Origin: Allostella sp. ATCC 35155
Lineage (GTDB): Bacteria > Pseudomonadota > Alphaproteobacteria > ATCC43930 > Allostellaceae
Reading direction: 5' to 3'
Assembly (NCBI GenBank): GCA_006738865.1
Contig: AP019701.1
Coordinates: forward strand, 248,001-312,000
DNA: 64,000 bases
This document shows, in pieces, positions 32,563-35,998 of the stretch. The notes under the pieces were generated by a model. The model was given only the letters and a program-made list of their open reading frames with translations. It searched no databases and had not been told where the DNA came from. Every line of letters begins with the position of its first letter. Positions within the stretch are counted from its first letter, which is position 1. A program made the translations under genes and the position numbers.

Positions 32563-32648
32563 GCCCCTGTGGCGGAATGGTAGACGCGGCAGACTCAAAA
32601 TCTGTTGTCCGCAAGGGCGTGTTGGTTCGAGTCCGACCAGGGGCACCA
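32563..32648 (+). tRNA. tRNA-Leu (anticodon CAA)
   Basis: An 86-base tRNA folds with a 7-bp acceptor stem (GCCCCTG with CAGGGGC), a D-arm GCGGAATGGTAGACGC, anticodon stem-loop GCAGA-CTCAAAA-TCTGT giving anticodon CAA, a long variable arm TGTCCGCAAGGGCGT as in class II tRNAs, T-arm GTTGG-TTCGAGT-CCGAC, and an encoded CCA end. It reads UUG leucine codons. A TATGTT -10-like hexamer lies 11 bp upstream. Confidence 0.97.
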
Positions 32649-34015: not shown

Positions 34016-34894
34016 TCAGGCTTTCGCCGGCGCCAGCTTGTCCTGGGTCTTGGTCTCGAAGTCGGCGGCGTCGTGGCGCTCGTGCAGCTGGGTCGCGGGA
34101 TCGCCGCTGACGCGATTGACCATGCGCCCGCGCTGCACCGTCGGCCGCTCCAGCAGCATGTCGGCCCAGCGCTGGACGTTGCGGTACTGGTCGACGGCGA
34201 GGAACTCGGCGGCGCCATAGAGCCAGCCCTTGGCCAGCCCGCCATACCAGGGGAAGATCGCCATGTCGGCGATCGTGTAGTCGCCGCCGGCGACATACTC
34301 GGTCTCGGCCAGCCGCCGGTCGAGCACGTCGAGCTGGCGCTTCACCTCCATCGCGAAGCGGTCGATCGCATATTCGATCTTGGTCGGCGCGTAGGCGTAG
34401 AAGTGGCCGAAGCCGCCGCCGAGATAGGGGGCGCTGCCCATCTGCCAGAACAGCCACGACAGGCATTCGGCGCGGGCTGCCGGCTCGGTCGGCACGAAGG
34501 CGCCGAACTTCTCGGCGAGGTAGAGCAGGATCGATCCCGATTCGAAGACGCGGATCGGCTCGGGTCCGCTGCGGTCGACGAGCGCCGGGATCTTGGAGTT
34601 CGGATTGACGGCGACGAAGCCGCTGCCGAACTGGTTGCCGTCGCCGATTCGGATCAGCCAGGCGTCGTACTCGGCGCCGGCATGGCCCAGCGCCAGCAGC
34701 TCCTCCAGCATGATCGTGACCTTGACGCCGTTCGGCGTGCCCAGGGAATAGAGCTGCAGCGGGTGCCGGCCGACCGGCAGCTCCTTGTCGTGCGTCGGCC
34801 CGGCGATCGGCCGATTGATGCTGGCGAAACGGCCGCCGTTCTCTTTCTGCCAGGTCCAGACCTTGGGGGGCATGTAGCCGGGGGCGTCGTTCAT
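34016..34894 (-). CDS. yghU: YghU-like glutathione transferase / disulfide-bond oxidoreductase
   Basis: The 292-residue protein carries the Nu-class GST features: PPKVWTWQKENGGRFASINRPIAGPTHDKELPVGRHPLQLYSLGTPNGVKVTIMLEEL at the N-terminus, NSKIPALVD and VFESGSILLYLAEKFG in the thioredoxin domain. Enzymes of this group bind two glutathiones and reduce disulfides. The start at 34894 is the closest ATG to the conserved region. It is divergent from a TetR gene with a strong palindrome between them. Confidence 0.92.
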   Translation of the reverse strand: MNDAPGYMPPKVWTWQKENGGRFASINRPIAGPTHDKELPVGRHPLQLYSLGTPNGVKVTIMLEELLALGHAGAEYDAWLIRIGDGNQFGSGFVAVNPNSKIPALVDRSGPEPIRVFESGSILLYLAEKFGAFVPTEPAARAECLSWLFWQMGSAPYLGGGFGHFYAYAPTKIEYAIDRFAMEVKRQLDVLDRRLAETEYVAGGDYTIADMAIFPWYGGLAKGWLYGAAEFLAVDQYRNVQRWADMLLERPTVQRGRMVNRVSGDPATQLHERHDAADFETKTQDKLAPAKA

Positions 34895-34942
34895 CGCGAA
34901 TCTCCGCAAGGCGGGCGGCGCTCGGCCGCGGCCAATGATGAC

Positions 34943-34966
34943 ATTTTAGATTGTATGATCTAAAAT
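34943..34966. promoter_or_regulatory. Perfect 9-bp inverted repeat, likely TetR operator, between yghU and tetR
   Basis: ATTTTAGAT and ATCTAAAAT flank a 6-bp spacer TGTATG. It is by far the most AT-rich stretch in its neighbourhood, and -10-like hexamers lie inside it on both strands (TATGAT forward, TACAAT reverse). Its place in a divergent promoter next to a TetR gene makes it the probable binding site of that protein. Confidence 0.75.
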
Positions 34967-34996
34967 ACAGACCTTCGACGACGACGGCAAGGCAGG

Positions 34997-35620
34997 ATGG
35001 CGAGACCGCGGGAGTTCGACGAGGCGGCGGTGCTGGATGCGGCGATGGAGTGCTTCTGGGCCAATGGCTACGAGGCGACCTCGGTCCGCGACCTGACGGC
35101 CCGGACCGGGCTCTGCGGCGCCAGCCTCTACAACGCCTTCGGCGACAAGCGGCTCCTCTATGTCCGGGCGCTGGATCGCTATGTCGAGGACAGTATCGGC
35201 GCGCGCATCCGCCGCTGCGAGACGCTGTCGCCCGGCGCGGCCATCGAGGCCTTCTTCGCGGAGGTTCTCGAGCGGTCGCTGCAGGATCCGTCGCACCGGG
35301 GATGCATGCTGGTGAATGCTGCATTCGAGGCGGGGTCGCCGGACGGCGATCTGCGCGCCATGGTCGCCGGGACCCTGGTGCGAATCGAGCGCTTCTTCGC
35401 CGGCTGCGTTCGCGCCGGCCAGGCCGACGGGACCATCGCGGCGTCGGCGAGTCCCGAGGAGGTCGGGCGCCACCTTCTGGCCGTCCTGATGGGGACGCGG
35501 GTGCTGGCGCGAATCCGCCCGGAGCCGGTCTTGCTGCAAGGGGCGGTGGCGACCGCCCTCGCAATCCTCCGGCCCGTCCGTCCCGCGGGCGGCGAAGCGG
35601 CGCGCCCGCCCGGCGTCTAG
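34997..35620 (+). CDS. TetR/AcrR family transcriptional regulator
   Basis: The 207-residue regulator has an N-terminal HTH (FDEAAVLDAAMECFWANGYEATSVRDLTARTGLCGASLYNAFGDKRLLYVRAL) of the branch with LYNAFGDK, and a TetR_C-type ligand domain. Divergence from yghU and the palindrome between the genes suggest it represses yghU and itself until an electrophile or similar ligand binds. Its stop overlaps that of the convergent ArsR gene by four bases. Confidence 0.88.
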   Translation: MARPREFDEAAVLDAAMECFWANGYEATSVRDLTARTGLCGASLYNAFGDKRLLYVRALDRYVEDSIGARIRRCETLSPGAAIEAFFAEVLERSLQDPSHRGCMLVNAAFEAGSPDGDLRAMVAGTLVRIERFFAGCVRAGQADGTIAASASPEEVGRHLLAVLMGTRVLARIRPEPVLLQGAVATALAILRPVRPAGGEAARPPGV

Positions 35621-35961
35621 GCCCGCTCCTGCTCCTCCCGCTCGAGCAGGGTTGCGAGACGGTCGAGGCTGCCGGTCCAAAAGCGCTGATAGTGGGCAAG
35701 CCAGCTCATCGCTTCCTCCATCGGTCCGGCGCTCAGGCGGCAGGACACGGTCCGCCCGACCTTCCTGCGGGTGATGAGGCCGGCATCCGAGAGCACGTCG
35801 AGGTGCTTCATCACGGCCGGCAGGGACATCGGGATCGGGCGGGCGAGCTCCGTCACCGACAGGGTCTCCGCCTCGCCGAGCCGGGCGAGCAGGGCCCGGC
35901 GCGTCGGATCGGAGAGCGCGGCGAAGGTGCGGTCGAGCGGCGAACGATCAGAGTTAACCAT
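35617..35961 (-). CDS. ArsR-type winged-helix transcriptional regulator
   Basis: The 114-residue protein has the phrases LDRTFAALSDPTRRALLARLGEAETLSVTELARPIPMSLPAVMKHLDVLSDAGLITRRKVGRTVSCRLS, the ArsR fold of the SRPBCC-associated subgroup, without metal-binding cysteines in the HTH. The usual SRPBCC partner gene is absent here. The start at 35961 is chosen by homology and because the promoter seen at 35970-35998 would not transcribe the upstream ATG. Confidence 0.87.
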   Translation of the reverse strand: MVNSDRSPLDRTFAALSDPTRRALLARLGEAETLSVTELARPIPMSLPAVMKHLDVLSDAGLITRRKVGRTVSCRLSAGPMEEAMSWLAHYQRFWTGSLDRLATLLEREEQERA

Positions 35962-35998
35962 CGCGTTAAACAATAGGATCATCATACAACCCGGTCAA
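35954..35998 (-). promoter_or_regulatory. Promoter and short inverted repeat at the start of the arsR-type gene
   Basis: On the minus strand, TTGACC (complement of 35993-35998) and TATTGT (complement of 35970-35975) are 17 bp apart. An inverted repeat TTAAC-CATCGC-GTTAA (35954-35969) spans the start codon and touches the -10 box, a good place for autorepression. The transcript would begin within a few bases of the ATG, and no Shine-Dalgarno sequence is seen. Confidence 0.45.

Follow-up and report, generated by a model that had tools for sequence, protein, structure and literature searches.

In the available text of PMC5892560, E. coli YghU has disulfide-bond reductase activity and, with YfcG, cleaves lignin-derived glutathione conjugates in vitro; the physiological roles of these Nu-class GSTs are called largely unknown in the same text. 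NemR of E. coli regulates enzymes of electrophile and glutathione-linked detoxification. According to the part of PMC7464077 at hand, its HOCl response rests on a Cys106–Lys175 bond, and its electrophile response is assigned to Cys21 and Cys116, not Cys106. AltR, from the allicin tolerance cluster of Pantoea ananatis, is described as NemR-related and requires Cys100 for de-repression by thiosulfinates; of the stresses named in the accessible portion of PMC13178969, thiosulfinates alone de-repress it, and other oxidisers and disulfide derivatives do not. Certain epoxides release CifR of Pseudomonas aeruginosa from DNA, as given in the available text of PMC8244358. Here we describe a locus in which a tetR gene and a yghU gene diverge from a shared palindrome.

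The yghU–tetR intergenic region

The locus lies in a window of 64,000 nucleotides, the whole stretch of Allostella sp. ATCC 35155 DNA that was analysed (contig AP019701.1, positions 248,001 to 312,000). The two genes are divergent and separated by a gap of 102 bp (Table 1). Within this gap, 48 bp upstream of the yghU start codon, is a perfect 24-bp inverted repeat, ATTTTAGAT-TGTATG-ATCTAAAAT, whose 9-bp arms (34943–34951 and 34958–34966) flank a 6-bp centre. Its G+C content is 17%, against 57% for the gap and 70% for the window. A perfect repeat of this 9-6-9 geometry occurred by chance at a mean of 0.95 per 64 kb in 20 first-order Markov resamples of the window. AT-rich perfect repeats, defined by a 9-base arm with at most three G/C and a spacer of 0–10, numbered one in the window and none in any of the 20 resamples. 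The initial annotation had reported the repeat as perfect and strikingly AT-rich, and both descriptions held.

Across the 5.34-Mb genome, the pattern TAGAY-N6-RTCTA was found at a single place, the palindrome, as compared to eight for a reversed control pattern. The pattern TTYTAKW-N8-WMTARAA, with up to two mismatches, was found at nine places versus 31 for its control; the palindrome was the only exact match and the other eight places each carried two mismatches. The search for further operator targets in this genome thus yielded no second exact match to either pattern.

Table 1. Features of the yghU–tetR region (positions in the window).
Feature	Position	Strand	Remarks
TetR operator (predicted)	34943..34966	.	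perfect inverted repeat; ortholog layout; single exact genome site
tetR, TetR-family regulator gene, 207 aa (P0001)	34997..35620	+	TetR_N + TetR_C_13; start codon at 34997
yghU, glutathione-dependent disulfide-bond oxidoreductase gene, 292 aa (P0002)	34016..34894	-	probable regulated gene; first base of start codon 34894
Predicted sigma-70-type tetR promoter	34938..34966	+	-35 ATGACA 34938-34943; 17-bp spacer; -10 TAAAAT 34961-34966
Weak candidate yghU -10 boxes	34943..34955	-	TAAAAT 34943-34948; TACAAT 34950-34955; without clear -35

The predicted tetR promoter matches the consensus at 10 of 12 positions and was the sole promoter-like site found by a promoter scan of 34850–35050. Its spacer and −10 hexamer fall inside the palindrome, the −10 being contributed by the right arm. 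For the yghU strand, the scan of the same interval listed no promoter, and the best −35 for the TAAAAT box, the only one of the two hexamers that was scored, matched at two of six positions. It had been proposed that the palindrome covers the −10 boxes of both genes; this is well supported for tetR and not clearly so for yghU, where the hexamers have no good −35. The sites of the nearest relatives show the same asymmetry. Of 85 ortholog sites, 73 have TAGAAT, TAAAAT or TATAAT in the arm nearer to tetR. Over these 85 sites, a −35 hexamer with at least four of six matches is present on the tetR side in 29% and on the divergent side in 11%, as compared to 8% of 1700 random positions. Since the yghU side lacks a −35, the case for control of yghU is built on position and on the module described below.

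Two further features of the window were recorded. An ArsR/SdpR-type regulator gene (35617–35985, minus strand) faces tetR in convergent orientation, with a 4-bp overlap between the reading frames, and has GTTAAC and GTTAAAC near its start (35953–35971). None of the 94 other loci, all from the nearest relatives, contained a match to this regulator (tblastn, E 1e-8). A tRNA-Leu (CAA) gene is located at 32563–32648 (plus strand).

Conservation of the operator among relatives

To compare upstream regions, we collected orthologous loci. In 43 genomes of the order, including that of the window, 14 loci besides the window's encode a protein at least 53% identical to the TetR. A further 80 were the best 80 of 539 confirmed relatives, so that all counts describe nearest relatives. 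One locus (L093) was dropped as the same stretch as another (L040), and the remaining 94 were reduced to 90 by collapsing near-identical upstream regions. These 90 non-redundant loci were scored with a symmetric weight matrix in a leave-one-out design.

The region upstream of tetR scored above 18 in 82 of the 90 loci and above 22 in 78; the window operator scored 38.7. The sites, with the consensus rTTYTAGAwCGATCGwTCTARAAy (letters assigned by eye from site frequencies), mostly start about 80 bp before tetR (quartiles −82 and −77), and that of the window starts at −54. The initial annotation had named absence of the palindrome from relatives with the same gene pair as grounds for abandoning the operator assignment. 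Contrary to that outcome, all 29 loci with YghU within ~5 kb scored above 18, and 28 of them above 22.

Outside the tetR upstream regions, 25 of 852,096 locus positions scored above 22. Twelve of these lie no more than 300 bp before a gene that one of our queries matched, compared with 1.4 expected from the share of such positions: five precede AhpC/TSA genes, four GrdB-like genes, two the YfcG-like GST gene termed GSTn below, and one a weak SDR match (29%). Because these positions were absent from the matrix training, they are a separate line of evidence for a module operator. In eight of the 90 loci, the tetR upstream region scored 18 or less. Three of these have a site elsewhere, before GSTn in L133 and before the AhpC/TSA gene in L109 and L095. 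In the other five (L046, L050, L051, L052 and L061), no position in the rest of the locus scored above 22.

Upstream regions of paralogs scored below 18 in 13 of 15 cases. The matrix did not fully separate the remaining two, L017 at 18.0, with 46 bp of upstream sequence covered, and L027 at 19.3. Three paralogs of 33–39% identity (L015, L016 and L024) have palindromes of the GGACT/(A or G)GTCC type instead. Among the 33–36% paralogs L014, L016 and L024, the palindromes are of the GGACT/AGTCC type, that of L014 being TAGACT/AGTCCA. In L014 and L016, a GST ~42% identical to the window YghU is directly downstream of the paralogous tetR and in the same direction, possibly constituting a sister system.

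Overall, the conservation upstream of tetR orthologs, the additional copies in the module and the single exact site in the genome strongly support the proposal that the palindrome is a TetR operator. By comparison with relatives, it is almost certainly the operator of the neighbouring TetR repressor.

The TetR regulator and a candidate sensing cysteine

The TetR protein matched PF00440 (TetR_N; 42.3 bits, cut-off 24) and PF16925 (TetR_C_13; 53.8 bits, cut-off 27). No NCBIfam model matched it at the model's cut-off, and its best solved-structure matches were 2i10 and CifR. We aligned 89 orthologs, including the window protein; L125 was left out as its tetR frame stops after five codons. Among these nearest relatives, Cys103 and Arg172 are each present in all 89 sequences. 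Three other cysteines are partly conserved: Cys19 in 74, Cys74 in 50 and Cys137 in 58 of the 89. Residue 40, where the presumed recognition helix begins, is a cysteine in the window TetR alone and a threonine in 83 of the 89.

In a pairwise alignment, on which the residues were counted, Cys103 falls on Cys106 of NemR and Arg172 on Lys175. The CifR cysteine aligned with Cys103 is a serine in chain 6nsm. The chemistry of the NemR bleach response cannot be copied exactly, since arginine replaces Lys175. Breadth of response is not predicted by a conserved cysteine: other oxidisers and disulfide derivatives fail to de-repress AltR. The palindrome had been predicted to form an electrophile or disulfide-stress switch. 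The invariance of Cys103 at the NemR Cys106 position and the thiol-redox neighbours in relatives make such a switch plausible; by contrast, the available text of the NemR review gives Cys106 a role in the HOCl response and Cys21 and Cys116 that in the electrophile response (PMC7464077). On sequence and by analogy, thiol-based sensing through Cys103 is likely.

YghU and the wider gene module

The divergent gene encodes a YghU: its product matched the NCBIfam equivalog PRK11752 with 524 bits (cut-off 325) and the E. coli YghU structure 3c8e with an E-value of 3e-136. The earlier designation of a YghU-type glutathione enzyme is therefore confirmed.

To identify genes that accompany tetR, we searched ~5 kb around it in the 90 loci of the nearest relatives using identity thresholds of 65% for YghU, 70% to the L042 copy for GSTn, 45% over more than 150 residues for AhpC/TSA, and 60% for a particular SDR and a GrdB-like protein. 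The counts are lower bounds, since some loci end at contig edges. GSTn was found in at least 57 loci, YghU in at least 29, AhpC/TSA in at least 25, the SDR in at least 22 and the GrdB-like gene in at least six. GSTn scored 179.5 bits with the YfcG model (cut-off 332) and 152.9 with the YghU model (cut-off 325); it is a YfcG-like GST below both equivalog cut-offs. The orthologs thus adjoin a YfcG-like GST more often than YghU (57 versus 29 of 90). GSTn is also present in 28 of the 29 YghU loci, the window being the sole exception, and YghU occupies the divergent side in 27 of the 29. An EamA transporter gene is beside tetR in several loci (by Pfam in L087 and L093, by eye in the others). One congener (G001) has tetR, GSTn, YghU and an AhpC/TSA-like protein in one direction, and another (G003) has divergent EamA, GSTn and YghU.

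YghU was also sought without reference to tetR. In a class-wide sample, it was present at E ≤ 1e-100 in 39 of 144 genomes. None of the 38 genomes other than that of the window had a TetR of at least 48% identity within ~6 kb of YghU, where some stretches end at contig edges, and a matrix score above 20 was found in one of the 38 loci, 2.5 kb from YghU. YghU is therefore an occasional partner of the regulator, not the reverse, and the tetR–yghU pair is not itself the usual unit. The window appears to hold a pared-down version of a conserved tetR/GST/YghU/AhpC-TSA module. Elsewhere in its own genome, the best matches to GSTn and EamA had 48% and 32% identity, respectively, and the AhpC/TSA query gave no match at E 1e-8, an empty result that is weak by itself; close copies elsewhere in the genome were thus not found. 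Our guess is that GSTn and EamA were lost here from an ancestral cluster. This scenario rests on gene content, as the tree of 89 orthologs placed the window protein in no well-supported grouping. In the literature covered, comprising titles and abstract openings with few subscription journals, we found no description of a TetR–GST–YghU module.

Several loci had other neighbours. In six (L043, L044, L045, L046, L047 and L049), the orthologous tetR is near a short GrdB-like gene (PF07355 in the L047 copy). Five of the six also encode a protein like the 242-aa one of L047, which has no Pfam match (tblastn), and in four the unit is preceded by an operator copy of its own. In four others (L078, L105, L108 and L117), tetR is near ECF sigma and NrsF anti-sigma genes, with NrsF recognised by Pfam in all four and the sigma factor scanned in L078, L105 and L117. 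An ECF16/NrsF-family system has been tied to hypochlorous acid resistance in Brucella, according to the accessible part of PMC8315932. Loci from Gemmobacter, Paracoccus and a Sphingomonas MAG (L054, L055 and L125) share an ORF with identical first 60 residues upstream of tetR, which suggests a mobile piece. Finally, five plasmid matches (H12–H16, from Alicycliphilus, two Comamonas, Sphingobium and Comamonadaceae) have one score and 54.7% identity, and are perhaps copies of one spreading gene.

Proposed mechanism and alternatives

We propose that a TetR dimer bound to the palindrome would cover the spacer and −10 of the tetR promoter and, from 48 bp before the yghU start, limit expression of its own gene and yghU together. 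A thiol-reactive compound, such as an electrophile, a disulfide or thiosulfinate, or an oxidant of the hypochlorous-acid type, would modify Cys103 in the C-terminal domain. The modified dimer would leave the operator and YghU, presumably acting as a glutathione-dependent disulfide reductase and deglutathionylating enzyme, would be made. In many relatives, this repressor and operator adjoin a larger cluster comprising a YfcG-like GST, AhpC/TSA, EamA and an SDR, with or without YghU; the window has tetR and yghU alone. We infer TetR binding, yghU repression, cysteine sensing and the class of inducer. To the whole chain of operator, yghU control and cysteine sensing of thiol-reactive stress, we assign a probability of roughly 0.7. 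Control of yghU by the repressor, judged from position and the module, is by itself very probable.

Non-covalent ligand binding is common among TetR repressors. The same operator and repressor could respond to a small molecule that binds reversibly, such as an aromatic compound or one of the glutathione conjugates that YghU cleaves, with Cys103 having a structural role. The absence of the NemR lysine partner and the EamA transporter adjoining several orthologs would suit such an inducer, as would the in vitro cleavage of glutathione conjugates by E. coli YghU and YfcG, enzymes of a class whose roles the available text calls largely unknown (PMC5892560). However, a cysteine retained in 89 of 89 orthologs at the position shared with NemR Cys106 and CifR, the AhpC/TSA genes in 25 of the 90 loci of nearest relatives, and the ECF/NrsF genes beside four relatives, of a family tied to HOCl resistance in Brucella (PMC8315932, as far as available), argue for cysteine chemistry, and we regard a bound ligand as rather unlikely.

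The palindrome might instead autoregulate tetR only, with yghU transcribed from an independent, unaffected promoter. The overlap with the tetR promoter is clear while a yghU promoter is not, and the 38 class-wide YghU genes lack this TetR. Nevertheless, the proximity of the operator to the yghU start codon in so short a gap, the copies in relatives that precede module enzymes at a distance from tetR (12 of the 25 additional sites, versus 1.4 expected) and the divergent placement of YghU in 27 of 29 loci make autoregulation of tetR alone improbable. Finally, the palindrome could have arisen by chance, serve as a terminator or be bound by an unrelated regulator. Approximately one perfect 9-6-9 repeat is expected per 64 kb, but AT-rich repeats were absent from all 20 resamples, no terminator-like site was found in 34850–35050, and the site is conserved in 82 of 90 orthologous loci of the nearest relatives; this explanation is barely credible.

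Implications

It is conceivable, at somewhat less than even odds, that these loci represent a widespread proteobacterial regulon comprising a cysteine-dependent TetR, a TTYTAGA-N8-TCTARAA-type operator, YfcG/YghU-like GSTs, AhpC/TSA and a transporter, the TetR having Cys103 together with an invariant Arg172 at the position of the NemR lysine. If so, the regulon would define a natural signal for the YfcG/YghU-like GST class, and the genome of the window would hold its smallest form: one operator, one repressor and one enzyme. Given a conserved repressor, a defined operator and a cysteine that may act as the sensor, the inducing stress is directly testable, and whatever releases TetR would probably reveal what the YghU/YfcG-like enzymes are for in these bacteria. 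Members of the regulon could also be read from genomes by means of the 24-bp consensus, as with the sites before AhpC/TSA and GrdB-like genes.

Comparison with known systems

The enzyme of the window is a clear YghU and differs from E. coli YghU (3c8e) in that its gene is beside a predicted TetR operator. The regulator shares with NemR its family and the alignment of Cys103 with Cys106. However, the two are 20% identical over the aligned part, Arg172 takes the place of the Lys175 partner in all 89 orthologs, and nemA and gloA are co-directional with nemR where yghU is divergent from tetR. AltR is alike by description, being a TetR repressor of its own promoter that has one key cysteine, a perfect inverted repeat with a 6-bp centre overlapping the −10, and thiol-stress genes. 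By contrast, its operator is CAATCTAC-N6-GTAGATTG as compared to ATTTTAGAT-N6-ATCTAAAAT in the window (PMC13178969, available part). CifR (6nsm, 6nsn and 6nsr) was the top hit among solved structures for the ortholog profile (E 8.2e-37), has a cysteine at the position aligned with Cys103 (Ser in 6nsm), and has a divergent target operon, as stated in the available part of PMC8244358; that target is an epoxide hydrolase operon and not a GST, whereas the divergent gene of the window is yghU. DitR of Stenotrophomonas maltophilia is likewise a TetR repressor inactivated through cysteines, in its case by diamide, but uses Cys92 and Cys127, binds CATAC-N5-GTATG and controls MFS transporters, according to the accessible text of PMC9342713. 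Overall, the proposed tetR/yghU switch adds a new and well-supported case to a known type of regulation; its less usual points are the invariant arginine in place of the NemR lysine and its membership in a conserved GST module.
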